NCBI GenBank assembly: GCA_018340805.1
Contig: JACMZG010001908.1
Location: 13,840,687 to 13,904,686, forward strand
Length of the DNA stretch: 64,000 nucleotides
DNA from: Microvelia longipes
Lineage: Eukaryota > Arthropoda > Insecta > Hemiptera > Veliidae
Reading direction: 5' to 3'
A program made the position numbers and the translations under genes. The notes under the pieces are model-generated. The model ran no database searches. It was not told the DNA's origin and saw only the letters and a list, made by a program, of their open reading frames with translations. This document shows positions 3,480 to 63,240 of the stretch, piece after piece (position 1 is the stretch's first letter; each line of letters begins with the position of its first letter).

Positions 3480-3722
3480 CTAACTGTCAAGATATTCATT
3501 TCTGAACCTTTTCTTCAGGTGGACTATGACGTTATTACGGTGACGTAACCTCCTATTCAAACTTACTGTTTTAATTTTATCGAATTCGACAGTCTGCGCA
3601 CTTCGTTGGCCGATCAGAAAACTATTTGGTGTTAGAGGTTCTAGGTCTGTGGGATTAGCAGAGATGAAAGTCAATGGTCTGGCGTTAATGACTGCTTCAC
3701 ACTCGCACAGTACAGTCGTCAT
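3480..3722 (-). pseudogene. BEL/Pao post-integrase domain (DUF5641-like) remnant
   Basis: A frame of 80 residues carries PLTFISANPTDLEPLTPN and FLIGQRSA, hallmarks of the C-terminal end of the BEL/Pao integrase region, followed by RLRHRNNVIVHLKKRF and a frameshift near 3480. The fuller version of this segment is at 9072-9623. It belongs to the copy at 3163-5932. Confidence 0.8.
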
Positions 3723-4422
3723 TTCTCCGCTATTAATGAGGACCTTCCGAGGTTCGCCGTAAAAGATTTTTCATTAGACCTATTAACCGTTCCCACCATC
3801 CACCCCACCACGATGCAGTGGGAGGATTAAATACCCATTGAATCCTCCTGTCTCCACTCTCTTTAGCTACTGACACCCAATCTATTGCTTTAAAAGGCAT
3901 TGTTTGCCCCTACGAAATTTTTTCCTTATCGCTATACATAGTTTCTTGGCCTCCCTCGTCTAGCTATAACCTACGCAACGCTAATAAAAAAACTTCAGTC
4001 GACAATCCCAGAACTAATTCTAAAGTGCACTGCTCTAAACAGCAACAGGTAAACAGTGCTATCCATGCCTTTTGCCACCTTAAGATATAACAGGTCCTGC
4101 AAAATCTACCCAGTAAACTCAAAAACTAAGCTATCTTGTACCCTACAAGGAGGCAAAACAGCCGGGACGGTGTTAATGGTTTAGCACTATATCTTTGGCA
4201 AGAAGTACATTTCTTTATAGCTTTCTTTTGGTTTTCTCTCTCCTAAAATCCAATATTTTTTCCCGTAACACACTGAGTAACATTTGTACCCCTCGATGAA
4301 ACCTGTGTTATGAGCATGTTTATTTTGAAATTATACTTCGTGATTTTTGGGAGCAAAATGGGACAGCAAAAATCATATTGATCATCTCTGAACGCAACTT
4401 TAGATTTTAATTAATAATACCT

Positions 4423-4959
4423 TTACAATTCAAAAAATGGATTTAACTCTTGAATATTTTTATCTTTTATTCCCTTAAAACTTTCTTTTTGAATTAATTT
4501 AATTATGAATTTTTCTGCGTCATCTAGTTCAATAACTAGTAATAACCTTCCCAAATATCGTTTATTTTTTCCTTTTTTACAATTATTTATAAACCTATTT
4601 ATCCACGCCATTACTACAACTATCTTGTTGAAATCTAACGAATGCTTATAATACCAGTTCCTATCAAATTTAGTCACCACTAAACTTACGCTCTCTTCTA
4701 CGATAATCTCACTATTATCGCATACATTCACACTCTCATCATTCAAATCTACACTATCCTGGTTTGGCCAAGTGTTCGGTGGCCCTTTTAGCCAATTTGG
4801 CCCTTCCCAGCCAGATGTCAATTCTTTCTCTGATTCTACACTCGTAACTGTATTGTCAACGTAAAAACAATCTAGAAGTTTCTTAACAACCCAATTAAAA
4901 TATTCTGAATGGTCACTTAAATACTTTTTTACATGAAACTCGATGGTTGCTCCTAACAA
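4423..4959 (-). pseudogene. BEL/Pao reverse transcriptase end and RNase H/integrase linker remnant
   Basis: The 178-residue frame contains CFYVDNTVTSVESEKE, the counterpart of the reverse-transcriptase YVDD box with its last D replaced by N, then GPNWLKGPPNTWPNQ and FNKIVVVMAWINRFINN, typical of the linker before BEL/Pao integrase. The spacing between the YVDN box and GPNWL is far too short for an intact polyprotein, so most of the RNase H region has been deleted. It ends with a stop at ~4423, followed by an out-of-frame integrase remnant. Confidence 0.8.
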
Positions 4960-5072
4960 GAATGGACTACATTTAACCCCAATACCACTCTACAGTGTCT
5001 ATAAATTTTCAAAATACCATTTTTTGTAGTCTTTCCCACCAAAGAAAACGTACTACATCTCTATCTTCTGGT

Positions 5073-5306
5073 CTAATACTTATCATAGAGAAATGCTTTT
5101 TTGATATCTGCTACAACCCCTATTTTATATTGCCTAAATCTTATTAAAACTTCTGGTATCAATTCAATTAAATTTGGACCGTTATCTAAACATTGGTTTA
5201 ATGATGGTTGGTTTCTTTCTTTAGCTGAAGCATCAAACACTGGCCTTATTGGCGTTGAACTACCTACTTTAATTACTGCTCTATGTGGAAGATAGTGTTC
5301 TCCCAT
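5073..5306 (-). pseudogene. BEL/Pao reverse transcriptase N-terminal remnant
   Basis: The 77-residue frame contains HYLPHRAVIK, IRPVFDASAK, PSLNQCLDNGPNLIELIPE and IGVVADIKKAFL, the first conserved blocks of BEL/Pao reverse transcriptase (the A block has ADI-KAF). A frameshift ends the frame just after this block at ~5085. Confidence 0.88.
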
Positions 5307-5947
5307 TTAGAGCCTACCTCGGGTGCTTCTTCTATAATACCCATACCTAACCATTTCATTAAACACATTTTCGTACGCTTCAAACATATTATCTTTAATT
5401 AATTTAAGAGTAGTAACTTTTAAACGTTTTTCTGCCAAATTTCTATTAGTTGGTAAAGGGGGGCTGTCATAATTCCAAGGGAAACGTATTTCATATCGCC
5501 CGTCCTCTTTTTGTATTACAGTTTTTAGAAAATGTTCTTTCGTAGCTATTTCCATTTCCTCTTTAGATTTTTTCTCCCCTGGATCTTTAATTCCTATTAA
5601 ATCTAAATCCCACAACTTAGTTAAATTTAGACTCTTCATTGACTGGCTCAAAACAGCACTTATTCCACTAAAACTAGCATTATTGTTTTTCCCATTAGAG
5701 TCCATCCTAAACATGTTTCTACCGCAACCAGCCCACAATCAAGTATTTTCCTATTTCCAGTCAACAAAATACCAGCTATATCAGCACCTATTAACAAACC
5801 TATCGGTGCAGGCTTTTTCCCTAAATCAGAGAGCTTTATCTTACTTTTCGCAAGCTCTTTATCCCATGGCCCATGCACTATTGGTGTTATACTCTGACAT
5901 ATTACTGATTGCTCTAACACCTCCATGTCAGATGTCAATTTGAACAA
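5307..5947 (-). pseudogene. BEL/Pao protease and protease-RT spacer remnant
   Basis: Two overlapping minus frames (5660-5947 and 5307-5738) together carry GLLIGADIAGILLTG and GLVAVETCLGWTLMGK, the flap and core of the BEL/Pao aspartic protease (peptidase A17). They are followed by LWDLDLIGIKDPGE and the spacer to the reverse transcriptase. The expected catalytic D-S/T-G box lies upstream and is missing, cut off by the neighbouring LTR-like end at 5933. One frameshift separates the two frames. Confidence 0.85.
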
Positions 5948-7195
5948 GACTAAAATATATTTTATAAAAATGACATAATAATAAAAATATATTCTAGCTT
6001 GTCACAACACTCCCCGCCCGAGGAGTGTCGTCCTCGATCCTTCCAAGGGATATAACGCTGAATTGGCCTTAGAATCTCTCCTTGTTGAGTCTTTAACTTG
6101 ACTACGCGGACTTCACCATCAGCGCCAGGAAACACCTCTATGACTCGTCCGAGGGGCCAGTCTACACGTTTCTTATCTTCTGCACCAATAAAGTACAGTT
6201 CACCAACTTTCACTGTAGTACTTGGTCCTTGTTTGTTATGGTGTACTAACTGTCCAAGATATTCATTTCTGAACCTTTTCTTCAGGTGGACTATGACGTT
6301 ATTACGGTGACGTAACCTCCTATTCAAACTTACTGTTTTAATTTTATCGAATTCGACAGTCTGCGCACTTCGTTGGCCGATCAGAAAACTATTTGGTGTT
6401 AGAGGTTCTAGGTCTGTGGATTAGCAGAGATGAAAGTCAATGGTCTGGCGTTAATGACTGCTTCACACTCGCACAGTACAGTCGTCATTTCCTCCGCTAT
6501 TAATGAGGACCTTCCGAGGGTCGCCGTAAAAGATTTTCATTAGACCTATTAACCGTTCCCACCATCCACCCACCACGATGCAGTGGGAGGATTAAATACC
6601 CATTGAATCCTCCTTTCCACTCTCTTTAGCTACTGACACCCAATCTATTGCTTTAAAGGCATTGTTTGCCCCTACGAAATTTTTTCCATTATCGCTATAC
6701 ATAGTTCTTGGCCTCCCTCGTCTAGCTATAAACCTACGCAACGCTAATAAAAAAACTTCAGTCGACAATCCCAGAACTAATTCTAAGTGCACTGCTCTAA
6801 ACACAGCACAGGTAAACAGTGCTATCCATGCCTTTTGCCCACCTTTAAGATATACAGGTCCTGCAAAATCTACCCCAGTAAACTCAAAAACTAAGCTATC
6901 TTGTACCCTACAAGGAGGCAAAACAGCCGGGACCGGTGTTAATGGTTTAGCACTATATCTTTGACAAGAAGTACATTCTTTAATAGCTTTCTTAATGGTT
7001 TTTCTCCCTCCTAAAATCCAATATTTTTCCCGTAACACACTGAGTAACATTTGTACCCCTCGATGACAACCTGTGTTATGAGCATGTTTTATTATTGAAA
7101 TTACTACTTCGTGATTTTTTGGAAGCAAAATGGGACAGCAAAAATCATATTGATCATCTCTGAACGCAACTTTAGATTTTAATCTAACGCTCGGA
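5933..7195 (-). mobile_element. BEL/Pao integrase-to-LTR fragment, subfamily A
   Basis: LTR-like end 5933-6009, purine tract, post-integrase region (frame 5962-6327) and integrase (frame 6592-7257) on the minus strand. It stops near 7190, where it is fused to a plus-strand fragment of another subfamily. The region between the two frames (6327-6592) still reads as BEL but with indels. Everything upstream of the integrase zinc finger is missing. Confidence 0.82.
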
Positions 7196-7257
7196 CCAGT
7201 CCTGGAGGTGTAGTCAAGATGAAGACTCAAGGAAAGATTCAAGGGAAGATTCCTCAT
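6592..7257 (-). pseudogene. BEL/Pao integrase remnant
   Basis: The 221-residue frame holds an HHCC zinc finger (H-x3-H in HAHNTGCHRG, C-x2-C in CTSCQRY) and a DDE-type core: FTGVDFAGP supplies the first D, and MYSDNGKNF the second D. The expected third acidic residue is lost after the frame shifts near 6600. The first ~20 residues are a chimeric read-through from the adjoining plus-strand fragment. This is the best-preserved integrase in the window. Confidence 0.88.
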
Positions 7258-7383
7258 TCAGTATTTATATCCTTTGGAAGGATCAAAGGACGACACTTCT
7301 CAGGCGGGGAGTGTTGTGACAAGCTATGTTATATTTTATTATTTTTGTAATTTTCATAAAATAAAATTTAGTCTTTGTTCAAG
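7190..7383 (+). mobile_element. BEL/Pao 3' tip with LTR-like end, subfamily C
   Basis: A plus-strand piece matching the 3' tip of the inverted element next to it (CGGACCAGTCCTGGAGG, then purine tract CAGGCGGGGAG and LTR-like end from 7312). It is abruptly joined to minus-strand BEL at ~7190. Its LTR-like end is followed at 7385 by the same end in reverse, so 7312-7461 is a palindrome of two LTR-like ends. Confidence 0.65.
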
Positions 7384-7384
7384 A

Positions 7385-9033
7385 TGTCAATTTGAACAAA
7401 GACTAAATTTTATTTTATGAAAATTACAAAAATAATAAAATATAACTAGCTTGTCACAACACTCCCCGCCTGAGAAGTGTCGTCCCTTGATCCTTCCAAA
7501 GGATATAAATACTGAATGGAGGATCTTCCCTTGAATCTTTCCTTGAGTCTTCATCTTGACTACACCTCCAGGACTGGTCCGAGCGGCCAGTATATACGTT
7601 TTTCAAATACAGTTCTCGAACTTTAACTGTAGTACTTAGTCCACTGTCTATTTGGTCAACTGTTCAAGATATTCGGTTCTGAACCTTTTTCAAGTTGGAC
7701 AATCACGTTATTTCGTTGACGAACCCTCCGATTTAAACTGAATGGTCGTACTTCGTTGGCCGATCAGGAAACTATTTAGTGTTTGTCATATGAAAGTCAA
7801 AGGTCTCGCTTAGTACAGTCTTTCATGTCCTCCACTATTAATAAGGACCTTCCAAGTGTATGCCGTAAAAGAATTTTCAGTATGCCTAGTAAACGTTTCC
7901 ACCATCCACCCCACCACGATGCGGTGGGAGGATTAAAACCCAATTTGATCCTCCTGTCTCCACTCTTTTTAGCTTTAAATGCTTTATTTACCCCTGAAAA
8001 ATTTGTCACATCACCTTTAAAAATATTTCCTAGTCTTTCTCGTCTAACCATAATCCTACGTAACCATAGTAAAAACATTTCAATCAAAAATCCTAGAACT
8101 GATTCTAAATAAACTATTTTAAAAACTCCACATATAATAAACGTAAACCATGTCATCGCTATTATTATTATGTTAAAATATAAAGATTCATAAAACCCGT
8201 TACTATTAAATTTAGTTACCCCTAAGTCCCCCCTCTCTTTTCTAATCTCACTATCCATTGAACTCTCACATTCATCATTCATTTCCACACTATCAATTTT
8301 ACTGGCTATATGTTTATCAACTACTATTCTTTTAAACTGTTCTTCCGTGACAATGTCTGTTTTCTTTTGAATTTTTTCTCCCTTTGATCTAATTTAAATT
8401 TTGTAACTTAGTTAATTTTGACTCTTCATTTAATGAACTCATAACAGCACTAATTCCACTAAAAGAAAATTTATCCGGTTTTCTCGGAGAACTCTCATTC
8501 ACACTCTCATTTTTTCTCTTGGAAACGTTTACTAGGCATACTGAAAATTCTTTTACGGCATACACTTGGAAGGTCCTTATTAATAGTGGAGGACATGAAG
8601 ACTGTACTAAGCGAGACCTTTGACTTTCATATGACAAACACTAAATAGTTCCTGATCGGCCAACGAAGTACGACCATTCAGTTTAAATCGGAGGGTTCGT
8701 CAACGAAATAACGTGATTGTCCAACTTGAAAAAGTTCAGAACCGAATATCTTGAACAGTTGACCAAATAGACAGTGGACTAAGTACTACAGTTAAAGTTC
8801 GAGAACTGTATTTGAAAAACGTATATACTGGCCGCTCGGACCAGTCCTGGAGGTGTAGTCAAGATGAAGACTCAAGGAAAGATTCAAGGGAAGATTCCTC
8901 CATTCAGTATTTATATCCTTTGGAGGATCAAGGGACGACACTTCTCAGGCGGGGAGTGTTGTGACAAGCTAGTTATATTTTTATTATTTTTGTAATTTTC
9001 ATAAAATAAATTTAGTCTTTGTTCAAATTGACA
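7385..9033. mobile_element. Foldback-like unit built from BEL/Pao 3' ends, subfamily C
   Basis: Bounded by TGTCAATTTGAACAAAG (7385) and CTTTGTTCAAATTGACA (to 9033). The outer ~490 bases on each side (about 7385-7880 and 8555-9033) are reverse complements, each containing an LTR-like end, a purine tract and the post-integrase region. The ~670-base centre holds integrase remnants on the minus strand (7797-8288, with FNPPTASWWGGWWKRL) and unplaced sequence. No intact frame. The long terminal inverted repeats make it look like a foldback element even though its parts are retrotransposon-derived. Confidence 0.65.
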
Positions 9034-9045
9034 TCAACCGTTCCC

Positions 9046-10081
9046 AATTTGACAAAAATAATAAAATAAAACTAGCTTGTCACAACACTCCCCGCCCGAG
9101 GAGTGTCGTCCCTCGATCCTTCCAAGGGATATAAACGCTGAATTGGCCTTAGAATCTCTCCTTGTTGAGTCTTTAACTTGACTACGCGGACTTCACCATC
9201 AGCGCCAGGAAACACCTCTATGACTCGTCCGAGGGGCCAGTCTACACGTTTCTTATCTTCTGCACCAATAAAGTACAGTTCACCAACTTTCACTGTAGTA
9301 CTTGGTCCTTGTTTGTTATGGTGTACTAACTGTCCAAGATATTCATTTCTGAACCTTTTCTTCAGGTGGACTATGACGTTATTACGGTGACGTAACCTCC
9401 TATTCAAACTTACTGTTTTAATTTTATCGAATTCGACAGTCTGCGCACTTCGTTGGCCGATCAGAAAACTATTTGGTGTTAGAGGTTCTAGGTCTGTGGG
9501 ATTAGCAGAGATGAAAGTCAATGGTCTGGCGTTAATGACTGCTTCACACTCGCACAGTACAGTCGTCATTTCCTCCGCTATTAATGAGGACCTTCCGAGG
9601 GTTCGCCGTAAAAGATTTTTCATTAGACCTATTAACCGTTCCCACCTGGATGGTGTCGAATTCGATAAAATTAAAACAGTAAGTTTGAATAGGAGGTTAC
9701 GTCACCGTAATAACGTCATAGTCCACCTGAAGAAAAGGTTCAGAAATGAATATCTTGGACAGTTAGTACACCATAACAAACAAGGACCAAGTACTACAGT
9801 GAAAGTTGGTGAACTGTACTTTATTGGTGCAGAAGATAAGAAACGTGTAGACTGGCCCCTCGGACGAGTCATAGAGGTGTTTCCTGGCGCTGATGGTGAA
9901 GTCCGCGTAGTCAAGTTAAAGACTCAACAAGGAGAGATTCTAAGGCCAATTCAGCGTTTATATCCCTTGGAAGGATCGAGGGACGACACTCCTCGGGCGG
10001 GGAGTGTTGTGACAAGCTAGTTTTATTTTATTTTTTTGTCAAATTTGTAAAATATATTTTCAGTCTTTGTTCAAATTGACA
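9046..10081. mobile_element. Foldback-like unit built from BEL/Pao 3' ends, subfamily A
   Basis: Left arm 9046-9434 (minus) and right arm 9652-10081 (plus) are reverse complements so similar that the same 70-residue antisense frame occurs in both (9178-9390 and 9702-9914). The left frame 9072-9623 covers the end of integrase and the whole post-integrase domain (LLRRTLGRSSL, PLTFISANPTDLEPLTPN, WPLGRVIEVFPGADG) up to the LTR. The right copy repeats it from VEFDKIKTV onward. LTR-like end 10005-10081; the left one is truncated to 9046-9087. The spacer (9435-9651) is unique to the left copy. Confidence 0.75.
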
Positions 10082-13977: not shown

Positions 13978-14695
13978 ATAGAGTGATAAGTTGTAGATGA
14001 TGGTGCCTAGAGTTATAAGTTGTGGATGATGGTGCCTAGATTGATAAGTTGTAGATGATGGTGTCTAGAGTGATAAGTTATGTCAGATGAGTGATGATGG
14101 TCAAGAGTGATAAGTAAATGATGGTGTCCTTGAGTAATAAGTTGTAGTGATGGTGTCAAGAGTGTAAGTGTAGATGATGGTGTAAGAGTGATAAGTCGTA
14201 GATGATGGTGTCAAGAGTGATAAGTGGTAGATGATGGTGTCTTGAGTAAATAAGTTGTAGATGATGGTGTCAGAGTGAGTGTAGATGAAGTAATAAGTAG
14301 TGATGGTGTCAGAGTGATAGTTGTAGATGATGGGTCAGAGTGATAGTTGTAGATTGATGGTGTCGAGTAATAAGTTGTAGATGATGGGTGTCTAGAGTGA
14401 TAAGTTGCAGATGATGTGTCAAGGTGATAAGTTGTAGATGATGGTGTCTTGAGTAATAAGTTGTAGATGATGTCAAGAGTGAATAAGTGTAGATGATGGT
14501 GTCTAGGTGATAAGTTTTAGATCATGGTGTCAAGATGATAAGTTGTAGATGATGGTGTCTAGAGTGATAAGTTGTAGATGATGGTGTCATGAGTGATAAG
14601 TTGTAGATGGATGGTGTCTAGGGAGGTGGTAAGTTGTAGATGGTGGTGTCGTAGAGTGATAGTTGTTAGTTGGTGTCAGAGTGTATCTAGAGTGA
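13978..14695 (+). repeat. 29-bp minisatellite, about two dozen copies
   Basis: Tandem copies of GAGTGATAAGTTGTAGATGA followed by TGGTGTCTA (29 bases). Copies vary mostly by losing or gaining single bases, which keeps any reading frame from staying open. The flanks on both sides are ordinary A+T-rich DNA. Confidence 0.9.
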
Positions 14696-19097: not shown

Positions 19098-20183
19098 CTA
19101 ATAGCTATAGTTCCATCCCCCTGAGAATCCATTGCTAAATGCGCCAGCAGCGTTGCTAGCGGCATTAGCGATGTTGCCAGCGGTATTAGCGATGTTGCCA
19201 GCGGTACTTAAAGCTCCCTGGGCGACGTTTGCAGCAGTGCTAACGGCTTTACCCGCTAAATTACCTGCAGTGTTGACAGCTCCGTTCGCTAAATTACCTG
19301 CGGCGTTAACAGCATTACCAGCTAAGTTTGCTGCAGTTCCGATGGCACCTCTGGTTACACTACCAGCTACGTTGAGAGCACCGTTAGCAACATTGTTGGC
19401 AGCATTTATGGCACCATTGGCAAGATTGTTAGCAGCTCCGAGAGCTCCTGCTGTTACTCCACCAGCGACATTAACAGCACCATTGGCGAAATTAGCGGCA
19501 GTACCGACAGCTCCATGGGCAAGTCCTTGAGCAGCTCCGACTGCACCTCTTGCTATTCCTCCTGCTGCGTTTAGAGCACCAGCGGTAATGCCTCCAGCGG
19601 CATTTAGAGCACCGTTAGTAAGACCTCCGGCTGCTCCAACAACACCTCTAGCTAATCCTCCTGCTGTGTTGGCTAGGAGATTAGTGGCACCAAGAGCTCC
19701 GTTTAGGATATTACCTGCTGCATTGAGAGCTCCTCCAGTCAAACCGGATGCGAGACCAACAGCTCCATGAGCTAAACCTGTTGCTGTTCCTAAAACTCCG
19801 TGAGCTGCCCCTAATGCTCCATTAACAACGCCGTTAGCAGCTCCTAAAGCTCCTCCTGTCAAACCTGCTGTGGTTCCCAAAGCTCCATTAACAACGCCGT
19901 TGGCAGCTCCTAAAGCTCCTCCTGTCAAACCTGCTGCGGTTCCCAATGCTCCATTAACAACGCCGTTAGCAGCTCCTAAAGCTCCTCTTGTCAAACCTGC
20001 TGCGGTTCCTAAAGCTCCATTAACAACGCCGTTAGCAGTACCAACTACTCCACTAGTTAATCCATTGACTCCTACTTGTCCAAATACCGGCCTATTCCTG
20101 TTTCCAAACAGGAACGGGCTTGGGAAAGCTTGACACGAGCCCATGAGAACGGCTACTGCCATGATAGATACGAACACCTTCAT
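19098..20183 (-). CDS. Secreted Ala/Gly/Asn-rich protein made of 11-residue repeats
   Basis: A single 361-residue open frame ends in TAG. Residues 1-19 (MKVFVSIMAVAVLMGSCQA) are a clear signal peptide with cleavage likely after SCQA. Residues ~20-40 (FPSPFLFGNRNRPVFGQ) are a Pro/Phe/Arg-rich start. The rest, to ~345, is about two dozen copies of an 11-residue unit, G-A-[LVI]-[GN]-[AT]-A-x-[GN]-[LVI]-x-[NGRH]. The tail GFSGGWNYSY is aromatic. No Cys remains after the signal peptide, and charged residues are rare. The ATG is preceded by GATC and a splice acceptor (TTTTATTTTAG, AG at 20188-20189), so an upstream non-coding exon is expected; one with a TATA box is found at 22493-22544. I do not recognise a family. 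By composition it could be a structural, cuticle, silk-like, salivary or ice-binding protein; function is unknown. Confidence is high that it is a real gene because the long repetitive frame, signal peptide, promoter and splice sites agree. Confidence 0.85.
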   Translation of the reverse strand: MKVFVSIMAVAVLMGSCQAFPSPFLFGNRNRPVFGQVGVNGLTSGVVGTANGVVNGALGTAAGLTRGALGAANGVVNGALGTAAGLTGGALGAANGVVNGALGTTAGLTGGALGAANGVVNGALGAAHGVLGTATGLAHGAVGLASGLTGGALNAAGNILNGALGATNLLANTAGGLARGVVGAAGGLTNGALNAAGGITAGALNAAGGIARGAVGAAQGLAHGAVGTAANFANGAVNVAGGVTAGALGAANNLANGAINAANNVANGALNVAGSVTRGAIGTAANLAGNAVNAAGNLANGAVNTAGNLAGKAVSTAANVAQGALSTAGNIANTAGNIANAASNAAGAFSNGFSGGWNYSY

Positions 20184-20229
20184 GATCCTAAAATAAAAAT
20201 ATCACAATAAGTAAAAGATTTAAATTGAC

Positions 20230-24994: not shown

Positions 24995-25242
24995 GAAACT
25001 TTTTCGAATCCTACGAATTCCAAAAGTGTTTCTTACATTTTTTAATTTTTTTGCGGATAGTATACACTTTTTTCGAATCCGACGAATTTCCAAATGTGTT
25101 TCTTACATTTTTTAATTTTGTTGCGGGATAGTATACACTTTTTTCGAATCCGACGAATTTCCAAATGTGTTTCTTACATTTTTTAATTTTGTTGCGGATA
25201 GTATACACTTTTTTCGAATCCGACGAATTTCCAAAATGTGCA
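24995..25242. repeat. 70-bp tandem repeat, about 3.3 copies
   Basis: TTTTTTCGAATCCGACGAAT recurs at ~70-base intervals (CGAATC at about 25005, 25075, 25145 and 25215), each followed by TTCCAAATGTGTTTCTTACA and GCGGATAGTATACAC. Antisense frames through it are products of the repeat. 24680-24994 upstream holds nothing recognisable. Confidence 0.9.
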
Positions 25243-27655: not shown

Positions 27656-27855
27656 ATTTTGGCTTAAACAGATATGAATGTTGTTGCTAATGTTCAAGAA
27701 ATTCTTGAAATGAATTAGAAGACCGTCTTTTTTGATGTCGCAAATAATATAAAATGCCTTTCAAATGAGGAATTAATTTTCCTTTCTTCTAATTTTAAGT
27801 AATTTTCTTCTTGTCATTAGACCCTAAAATTAAAAATCGAGATTTTTCCAGAGAA

Positions 27856-28042
27856 TTAAGTGTCTAAAGATAGGGAATTAAGTGTCTAAAGATAGGGAAT
27901 TAAGTGTCTAAAGATAGGGATTAAGTGTCTAAAGATAGGGAATTAAGTGTCTAAGGGAATTAAGTGTCTAAGGGAATTAAATGTCTAAGGATTAAGTGTC
28001 TAAAGATAGGGAATTAAGTGTCTAAAGATAGGGAATTAAGTG
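27856..28042. repeat. 22-bp minisatellite
   Basis: About eight or nine tandem copies of AGGGAATTAAGTGTCTAAAG plus AT (22 bases), with a few shortened copies of ~15 bases in the middle where AAAGATA is lost. Confidence 0.9.
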
Positions 28043-32404: not shown

Positions 32405-32640
32405 ACGGCTGACTTTGACTCCTTCGAAAATTGCCGACCTTGACTTCGACTCCTTCAAAAATTGCCGACCTAGACTTCGACTCCTTCGAAAATTACGACT
32501 AACTTCGACTCCTTCGAAATTGCCGACCTAGACTTCGACTCCTTCGAAAATTGCCGACCTAGACTTCGACTCCTTCGAAAATAGCCGACCTAGACTTCGA
32601 CTCTTTTGAAAATTGCTGACCCAGACTTCGACTCCTTGTA
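32405..32640. repeat. 31-bp minisatellite
   Basis: About seven copies of CGACTCCTTCGAAAATTGCC followed by GACCTAGACTT (31 bases). More G+C than its surroundings. TTCGAA lies in most units. The unit length is not a multiple of three and no frame stays open. Confidence 0.9.
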
Positions 32641-34490: not shown

Positions 34491-34496
34491 AATGTT

Positions 34497-34740
34497 TATG
34501 CGAGTTAAAAAGAGACATGTTTTTGCGAGTTAAAGAGAGACATGTTTTTGCGAGTTAAAGAGAGACGTGTTTTTGCTAGTTAAAGAGAGACGTGTTTTTG
34601 CTAGTGAAAGAGAGACATGTTTTTGCGAGTTAAAGAGAGACGTGTTTTTGCGAGTTAAAGAGAGACGTGTTTTTACGAGTTAAAAAGAGAGACATGTTTT
34701 TACGAGTTAAAAAGAGAGACATGTGTTTAAAAGTAGACAT
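34497..34740. repeat. 25-bp minisatellite
   Basis: About nine copies of AGAGAGACGTGTTTTTGCGA followed by GTTAA (25 bases), with ATG/GTG and GCG/ACG/GCT variants. The last two copies are two bases longer. Confidence 0.9.
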
Positions 34741-58569: not shown

Positions 58570-58762
58570 CCTTAATACAAATAATGAGACAATACAAACA
58601 ATGATAAATGACAAAACAAATAATGAGACAATACAAACAATGATAAATGACAAAACAATACAAATAATGAGACATTACAAACAATAATAAATGACAAAAC
58701 AATACAAATAATGAGACATTACAAACAATAATAAATGACAAAACAATACAAATAATGAGAAA
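58570..58762. repeat. ~44-bp tandem repeat
   Basis: About five units of CAAATAATGAGACATTACAA followed by ACAATAATAAATGACAAAACAA with spacings of roughly 39-44 bases. The minus-strand ORF over it is repeat-derived. Confidence 0.85.
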
Positions 58763-59654: not shown

Positions 59655-59724
59655 ATGGGAAAACAAAATAGTAAATTAAAGCCTGAAGTGCTGGAGGATT
59701 TGAGACAAAACACTGAATTTTCAG
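59655..59724 (+). CDS. Nca: Neurocalcin, first coding exon
   Basis: ATG is preceded by acceptor TTCTTTTAG (AG at 59633-59634) and 20 bases of 5' UTR, so at least one non-coding exon lies upstream. The exon encodes MGKQNSKLKPEVLEDLRQNT then EFS and ends in split codon G|AT (phase 1) before donor GTATTT. MGKQNS is an N-myristoylation signal (Gly2, Ser6) used by neurocalcin for Ca2+-dependent membrane switching. With the exons at 60859-60977 and 62651-62839 it gives 126 residues that match insect Nca as I remember it almost throughout. The final exon (rest of EF3 helix and EF4) is beyond 64000. Role: Ca2+ sensor that regulates membrane guanylate cyclases and other targets in neurons. Name is secure by family, not checked by search. 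Confidence 0.93.
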
Positions 59725-59789
59725 GTATTTATTACTTTCCTTCTTTTTTTCCTTTTTATTTAAATTTGATTAACATTTATTTTAACAAT

Positions 59790-60010
59790 AATTCAGAGCT
59801 TGGCATGAAAGTACAGCAGCTATGGAAAATGGACAAATTGTTTTTTGTGGCAATTATATTATCGGCTACAGGAGTCATATCTCATACACTTCATGACAGT
59901 TTGCATGAATTAGATACTAATCCTTACATTTACAAAACTTTAAAGAAAGCTGCCATCATCAATACCTGCATCATCATATGAAAATTTTTATCGACAGACC
60001 TTGTGACTTA
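59790..60010 (+). pseudogene. LINE ORF2 C-terminal fragment in Nca intron
   Basis: Reads ELGMKVQQLWKMDKLFFVAI, then ILSATGVISHTLHDSLHELD and KKAAIINTCI, followed by a frameshift into RKFL. The SATGVI-TLH-SL...LNTC-RKFL order is the common tail of endonuclease-type non-LTR retrotransposon ORF2 proteins. It is open in frame with the first Nca exon by chance, so it must not be read as Nca protein. No clear target duplication. Confidence 0.75.

Positions 60011-62272: not shown

Positions 62273-63240
<968 letters not shown>

Follow-up and report, generated by a model that had tools for sequence, protein, structure and literature searches.

The window gene and its surroundings

The 64-kb stretch of DNA analysed here (C558:13840687-13904686, hereafter the window) carries on its minus strand a complete coding sequence, 19098..20183, which by its ORF translation runs from ATG to TAG as a single coding exon of 361 aa and corresponds to C558:13859787-13860869 in genome coordinates. 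The predicted protein begins with a hydrophobic, signal-peptide-like segment (residues 1-19, MKVFVSIMAVAVLMGSCQA; 20127..20183, minus strand), putatively assigned from the sequence and from an alignment with the MK[AT]FFAVLAVAAIFGSSAAQ-like starts of paralogues rather than by a signal-peptide program. This is followed by an N-terminal linker of 18 residues (20-37; 20073..20126, minus), which contains Pro and Arg and lies outside the array, by the repeat array itself (residues 38-351; 19131..20072, minus) and by a C-terminal tail, GFSGGWNYSY (residues 352-361; 19101..19130, minus). Upstream of the start codon, comparison with the paralogues suggests that an intron of the 5'UTR may end at a 3' splice site, TTTTAG|GATCATG (20188..20189, minus).

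The 314 residues of the array are tiled by 26 units of 11 and four units of 7 residues with zero remainder, the unit boundaries having been set by eye and the sum verified by script. The initial annotation had counted about 24 units and three of 7 residues, GVNGLTS (residues 38-44; 20052..20072, minus), TAGGLAR (residues 173-179; 19647..19667, minus) and TAGNIAN (residues 334-340; 19164..19184, minus); each of these three fits the tiling, but the overall count was low and a fourth, GALGAAH (residues 122-128; 19800..19820, minus), had been missed. Its remark that the protein is almost uncharged was borne out, as the array contains 4 Arg, 1 Lys and zero Asp/Glu (1.6% charged residues), with a hydrophobic fraction of 0.50, an aromatic fraction of 0.006 and 24% Gly; Ala makes up 28% of the array and 26% of residues 20-361. 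The glycine-zipper-like G-x2-G-x3-G spacing it had pointed out is likewise present, at columns 1, 4 and 8 of the unit.

This composition bears on the idea that the protein is the precursor of membrane-active secreted peptides, for defence or saliva, which would be cut into amphipathic pieces. An amphipathic helix, a secretory-type start and a tandem multigene family (see below) would suit such a precursor, but positive charges are nearly absent and the units are not separated by dibasic pairs, and we consider it hardly to be expected.

The remainder of the window holds features of other kinds. Neurocalcin exons lie on the plus strand at 59655-59981 and 62645-62989, the second of which matches EF-hand families and named arthropod neurocalcins, whilst the first has no Pfam match and is presumably a neurocalcin exon. 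The matching exon marks the source of the DNA as an arthropod, and probably an insect. Retroelement ORF fragments occur at 3480-9701 (minus) and 9391-10020 (plus), with several near-copies in both orientations, and the ORF at 6592-7257 matches Integrase_H2C2. There are 57 tandem-repeat rows in the whole window, and other tandem repeats were seen at 13979-14666, 25000-25240, 27853-28042, 32411-32637, 34492-34728 and 58574-58760. Elsewhere in the assembly, several COX1 matches are found within 47 kb of a long contig (G000:C564:11661969-11708593, minus), two of them broken by TGA alone, which is Trp in the invertebrate mitochondrial code; they may stem from mitochondrial sequence inserted recently in several copies, or from misassembly, and one COX1 copy is perhaps hemipteran. 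Neither a TTAGG nor a TCAGG array was present in eight 800-base contig ends, one of which was all N.

Periodicity and helical geometry of the array

Self-identity of the protein at lags of 11, 22 and 33 residues was 0.485, 0.524 and 0.487, compared to a mean of 0.18 and a maximum of 0.26 in 2000 shuffles, and chance is ruled out as the origin of the pattern by such shuffle comparisons. At the DNA level, Tandem Repeats Finder reported a 66-bp (two-unit) repeat at 19816..20038 (minus; 3.4 copies, 95% matches), a 21-bp repeat near the C-terminus (94%, 2.6 copies) and 33-bp rows elsewhere (62-76%). The 21-bp repeat corresponds to the TAGNIAN unit, whose codons are a perfect duplicate of the preceding seven (21/21 bases); those of GVNGLTS, GALGAAH and TAGGLAR match the seven codons on either side at just 2 to 13 of 21 bases. 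Codon differences between the three 66-bp copies (6 synonymous, 4 non-synonymous) give no clear selection signal. Differences from unit to unit were most frequent at the third codon position (0.64), followed by the first (0.45) and the second (0.31). In pairwise comparison of the 11-residue units 47% of residues are identical, and because just 44% of these share a codon (40% in the last 15 units), the pattern of the array is kept at the protein level. Among the 14 C-terminal units pN/pS was 0.56, and pN was lower in the hydrophobic columns (0.243) than in the polar ones (0.501) at equal pS (0.66); unit pairs are not independent, and these values and the codon figures are descriptive.

Over residues 41-350 the hydrophobic moment peaks globally at 98.5 degrees per residue, next to the 98.2 degrees of a helix with 11 residues in three turns, and its height (0.24 on the Eisenberg scale, 0.26 on that of Fauchere-Pliska) is about twice the maximum of 200 shuffles (0.12 and 0.13). 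Minor peaks at 64.5 and 163.5 degrees are further harmonics of the 11-residue period; indeed, as a strict period restricts the moment peaks to its harmonics, 98.2 is one among few possible values. Measured in a fixed frame of 98.5 degrees, the moment keeps a local direction between -43 and -121 degrees across the array, a spread of about 80 degrees. The mean moment at 98.18 degrees was 0.291 in 11-residue windows and 0.273 in 33-residue windows (maximum of 300 shuffles 0.16), and the latter fell to 0.169 and 0.077 at the strand angles of 160 and 180 degrees. Nine family stretches gave 0.225-0.298 in 33-residue windows, each exceeding the best of 200 shuffles of its own, and 0.250-0.308 in 11-residue windows.

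On the helical wheel the columns follow one another as 5 (Ala/Thr), 9 (Leu/Val/Ile), 2 (Ala), 6 (Ala), 10 (Ala/Thr/Val) and 3 (Leu/Val), with the polar side formed by columns 7, 11, 4, 8 and 1, which are Gly/Asn and where the 11-residue units also have their few Arg, His, Lys and Gln residues. Hydrophobic residues occupy columns 2, 3, 6 and 9 in 92-100% of cases, columns 5 and 10 in 62-65% and the other five in 0-23%. In a hendecad coiled coil the bulky residues come together in one core on the wheel. Here an arc of 131 degrees, occupied by Ala 2 and Ala 6, separates the bulky columns 3 and 9, and their placement at the edges is more easily reconciled with a broad flat face or with close Ala-Ala packing than with a hendecad core. 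The hydrophobic face, as inferred from the wheel, would thus be broad and flat, unlike the single narrow core of the usual hendecad coiled coil, and the coiled coil put forward in the initial annotation is not supported in the form given.

The changes of length between units were analysed by a segmentation in which any deletion of 1-10 columns carried an equal charge. Its 11 input stretches comprised the window array, genes C and D after splicing, A, B and J, one stretch of H and two each of F and G; it did not extend to gene 2, E and I, to the first exons of F and H, to the N-termini or to the final residues of some stretches. Thirty jumps were found, 23 of them of 4 columns, two of 7 (equal to the phase of +4), three of 3 and two of 8, the procedure operating modulo 11 so that -4 is indistinguishable from +7. 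All three jumps of the window array are of 4 columns, the first unit not being counted as it forms the edge, and one of the three is the 21-bp duplication. The 4-column jumps fall at several different columns, and many are shared by descent, one event having been copied in paralogues. Length changes that keep the helical phase, a hendecad-type feature, are therefore seen in 23/30 (4 columns) and 2/30 (7 columns), and 5/30 are of 3 or 8. However, the 11-residue unit has an internal 4-4-3 near-repeat, so 4-column changes could partly arise by slippage; the length-change rule fits a helix but is not proof of one. Together with the moment peak at 98.5 degrees and its stable direction, it upholds the earlier suggestion of a continuous hydrophobic stripe on an 11/3 helix whose phase is kept by the 7-residue units.

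Slippage is central to a reading in which the protein is a disordered or beta-forming low-complexity matrix, or a mucin-like filler, and the 11-residue period mainly a product of DNA slippage. The very low complexity, the Gly content (21-36% across nine family stretches), the 66-bp and 21-bp DNA repeats and the minor peak at 163.5 degrees are all consistent with such a filler. Against it, diverged units keep the column pattern although their third codon positions differ, most length changes preserve the helical phase, and the windowed moment is lower at strand angles, such that we regard the filler as improbable.

Structure prediction, which had been proposed as a check, gave long helices in both AlphaFold2 runs at moderate confidence, which was lower when family rows were supplied. 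From the single sequence, helices were drawn at residues 32-195 and 202-358 with a mean pLDDT of 70 (44 to 70 in the five models); with 8 family rows they spanned 39-128, 137-236 and 242-355, and the mean fell to 59. In this second model residues 251-350 scored best (75-91) and 134 residues stayed under 50. AlphaFold2 tends to draw Ala-rich sequence as helix anyway. A Foldseek comparison of the single-sequence model with the PDB returned zero matches at E 1e-3 among 128 at E up to 10, and hence the model assigns no fold.

The seventh of these 128 matches was the hyperactive winter flounder protein (4ke2_A, E 0.051, 21% identity over 193 columns), which, though not significant, speaks for ice binding in the manner of fish type I antifreeze proteins. 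These, including Maxi (4ke2), have in common with the window protein an 11-residue period and a long Ala-rich helix, and the flat stripe of Ala 2-6-10 likewise favours this reading. However, type I proteins are characterized in the available portion of PMC10992025 by more than 60% Ala and by 11-mers which begin with Thr, compared to 26-28% Ala here and, in the window protein, a longest run of 3 for Thr at a spacing of 11. Thr pairs at that spacing number 4 in the window protein (1.6 +- 1.1 expected) and 0 in the five paralogue stretches examined, each of which has 0-6 Thr in total. Judged by these type I features, the ice-binding option of the initial annotation fails on both counts, and we hold such a protein to be very improbable.

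The gene family and the search for relatives

In the 664.6 Mb and 1470 contigs of the genome, with the best 48 candidates scored per query, at least 22 matching places were found at E 1e-3 with the window protein and at least 35 with the N-terminus of a paralogue. Counted by start-Met exons, there are at least 12 genes of the 11-residue repeat kind, amongst them a tandem cluster of eight on C707 (14,150,272 to 14,237,855), two genes near C1361:80.71 Mb, one at C1361:18.236 Mb and the window gene itself. Most genes of the C707 cluster start alike, with MK[AT]FFAVL.VAAIFGSSAAQ, and a T-rich AG precedes the ATG in 12/12 genes, within about 10 bases in 11 of them and as CTAG about 18 bases upstream in J; as read from the sequence, this could end a 5'UTR intron in all 12. 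A coding intron, G|GT..AG|GT, is found in genes C, D, E and F and falls inside a 7-residue unit (GA[LC]G|LAN or SAYG|LAN). WGK forms the last three residues of six paralogues (2, D, E, F, G and H) and AGW those of C, and a Trp near the C-terminus is common to the window gene and seven paralogues. In the genome matches, the ends of A and B did not appear, nor did a second exon of B. The reading frame is interrupted in genes 2, E, F, G and H and, at its end, in A, which may reflect errors of this assembly or decay.

One C496 place (E 4.8e-4; nothing at E 1e-6) and three on C629 were not counted in the family. The C629 repeat (LLGQVHGLVHS, 11 residues) was rejected because its sequence is different; at G000:C629:47553730-47555010 (minus) it takes the form LLGQVHGLV[HRD]S, and the two open frames that carry it, 167 and 89 aa long, have no obvious signal peptide. 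In gene I (G000:C1361:80714402-80716092, minus), which is a member of the family, the first exon consists mostly of GGLTGGLTGSLGG-type blocks, and the downstream frame enters a GNQGNRGQ-type repeat.

Outside the genome the family appears isolated within the limits of the searches. The window protein matched 0 Pfam families by hmmscan at E 10, and 8 family members gave a sole match, to Senescence, which was weak (E 0.33) and confined to one member. A profile of the 8 members had no match in the PDB at E up to 1. In the protein database there was none at E 1e-3 for the window protein among 7994 candidates scored and none at E 0.01 for 11 aligned family sequences, in the main their N-terminal parts, among 7997 scored; these negatives are limited, as scoring extends just to candidates with the most shared words, a filter which becomes crowded by repeats. 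The neurocalcin exon of the window, used as a control, returned named arthropod proteins, and arthropods are therefore present in the database. Bacterial and archaeal genome contigs contained no match to the repeat protein. A match to a contig of the viral collection (L001) was set aside: at 4188-5768 two long ORFs overlap on opposite strands, one of 526 aa and SAVxSAV-type and one of 283 aa with NGAANGVVN-like repeats, and the match falls in a plus-strand ORF opposite the 526-aa ORF rich in the former repeats. No description of the family was found among the literature matches listed, and a text search with six of its peptide words returned no paper, the scope of both being main texts. A composition-based name borne by one Daphnia magna and one oyster gene fits the window protein, in a comparison by name alone with the available portions of PMC11331620 and PMC12040131. 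The statement that no named family with this pattern is known thus stands for Pfam, the PDB and the protein database, and, as far as their sequences tell, the 11-residue repeat proteins are a variant of a known protein design, without a named family or a relative elsewhere within the limits of these searches.

A self-assembling helical structural protein, silk-, cuticle-, egg-coat- or glue-like, would be a different answer to what such a family is for, its members packing into fibres or films through Alacoil Ala-Ala and glycine-zipper contacts and without a lipid surface. We think this possible, though doubtful. The secretory-type start, low complexity and high Gly/Ala would be in keeping with it, as would a tandem multigene family of varying repeat number, the G-x2-G-x3-G of columns 1, 4 and 8, the stripe of Ala 2/6/10 and the shared Trp near the C-terminus. 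However, the bulky residues sit at the edges of the hydrophobic face and not in one core, and no Pfam family was matched by the window protein, nor beyond the one weak case by the 8 members.

A possible surface coat and its known counterparts

The geometry and numbers close to those of perilipin 4 (Plin4), the secretory-type start and the near-zero charge led us to rank a non-ionic extracellular coat or surfactant first and helical self-assembly second. We tentatively favour, with less than even confidence, a secreted, non-ionic, Plin4-like 3-11 amphipathic helix which would fold upon a lipid, air or cuticle surface and coat it; of the options in the initial annotation, coating is probably the best. 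In the computed part of this proposal, one side of an 11/3 helix is lined by Ala/Leu/Val and the opposite side by Gly/Asn across 314 residues. In water the Gly-rich chain would be loosely folded and, on meeting a lipid, wax, air-water or cuticle surface, would fold lengthwise into a 3-11 helix, as Plin4 and alpha-synuclein do. The helix would then lie flat with its broad Ala face toward the surface, and neighbouring helices would pack sideways via their Gly/Asn faces, giving rise to an extracellular film or emulsifying coat of non-ionic protein. The wider proposal, that a whole multigene family encodes giant amphipathic helices which are extracellular and non-ionic, an arthropod protein surfactant which acts outside the cell as Plin4 does on droplets but with a Gly/Asn polar face, we regard as rather unlikely.

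The coat is favoured by the moment peak and its stable direction, moments near those of Plin4 and alpha-synuclein, the low moment at strand angles, hydrophobic columns which change less than polar ones, the 25/30 phase-keeping jumps and the AlphaFold2 helices. It should be considered with caution as Plin4 and synuclein are 15% and 24% charged versus 1.6% here, and 24% Gly disfavours a helix in water. The AlphaFold2 confidence was moderate and fell with family rows, a minor moment peak lies near the strand angle (163.5 degrees), the possible harmonic angles are few, slippage is an option, 5/30 jumps are of 3 or 8 and the youngest three copies are without clear purifying selection. If coating is true, the family would be a source of simple, repetitive, secreted protein films, and at least 12 genes which keep the 11/7 geometry, near-zero charge and Gly/Asn face would test which features of a helix matter for surface coating.

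Several known systems share parts of this design. LEA proteins have an 11-residue period. So do apolipoproteins, of which apolipoprotein A-I is 35% charged according to the available portion of PMC5889406. The polar face of both kinds of 11-mer is charged, whereas that of the window protein is Gly/Asn. Hendecad/heptad coiled coils and the helical silks of bees and ants resemble it in that mixed 11/7 spacing preserves the stripe, and differ in that it has its bulky residues at the face edges and almost no charge. Bee and ant silks are Ala-rich and secreted.

Plin4 and alpha-synuclein, in turn, are intracellular. Alpha-synuclein has the same 11-residue amphipathic period and was the sole PDB sequence at E up to 1 in a phmmer search, but the match is not significant (E 0.27) and, as the profile of 8 members had no PDB match, membership of the synucleins was rejected. 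Its moment is given as 0.30 over a helix region of 89 residues with 24% charged residues, and that of Plin4 as 0.257 with 15% charged, a hydrophobic fraction of 0.35 and an aromatic fraction of 0.002 (PMC5889406, Table 1), although published moments may use windowing unlike that used here. Plin4 consists of 29 33-mers without insertions or deletions and a predicted C-terminal 4-helix bundle (available portion of PMC5889406). It coats pure triglyceride as an immobile layer whose stability depends on polar residues (PMC5889406, PMC8064757), and droplet binding is nearly lost when conserved polar residues are changed or lysine is replaced by arginine (PMC8064757; both as far as the available portions go). 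The perilipin feature of an 11-mer repeat with 3-11 amphipathic periodicity is present in the array and in the family stretches, but neither a PAT nor a 4-helix-bundle domain was found by Pfam profile in the window protein and 8 members, and membership of the perilipins was rejected. The signal-peptide-like start argues against a cytosolic lipid-droplet location. The window protein is thus like Plin4 in its 11-residue period, 3-11 helix, weak moment (0.273-0.291), few aromatics and great length, and unlike this lipid-droplet protein in its secretory-type start, 1.6% charge, 7-residue units, 10-residue tail and lack of a Pfam domain.
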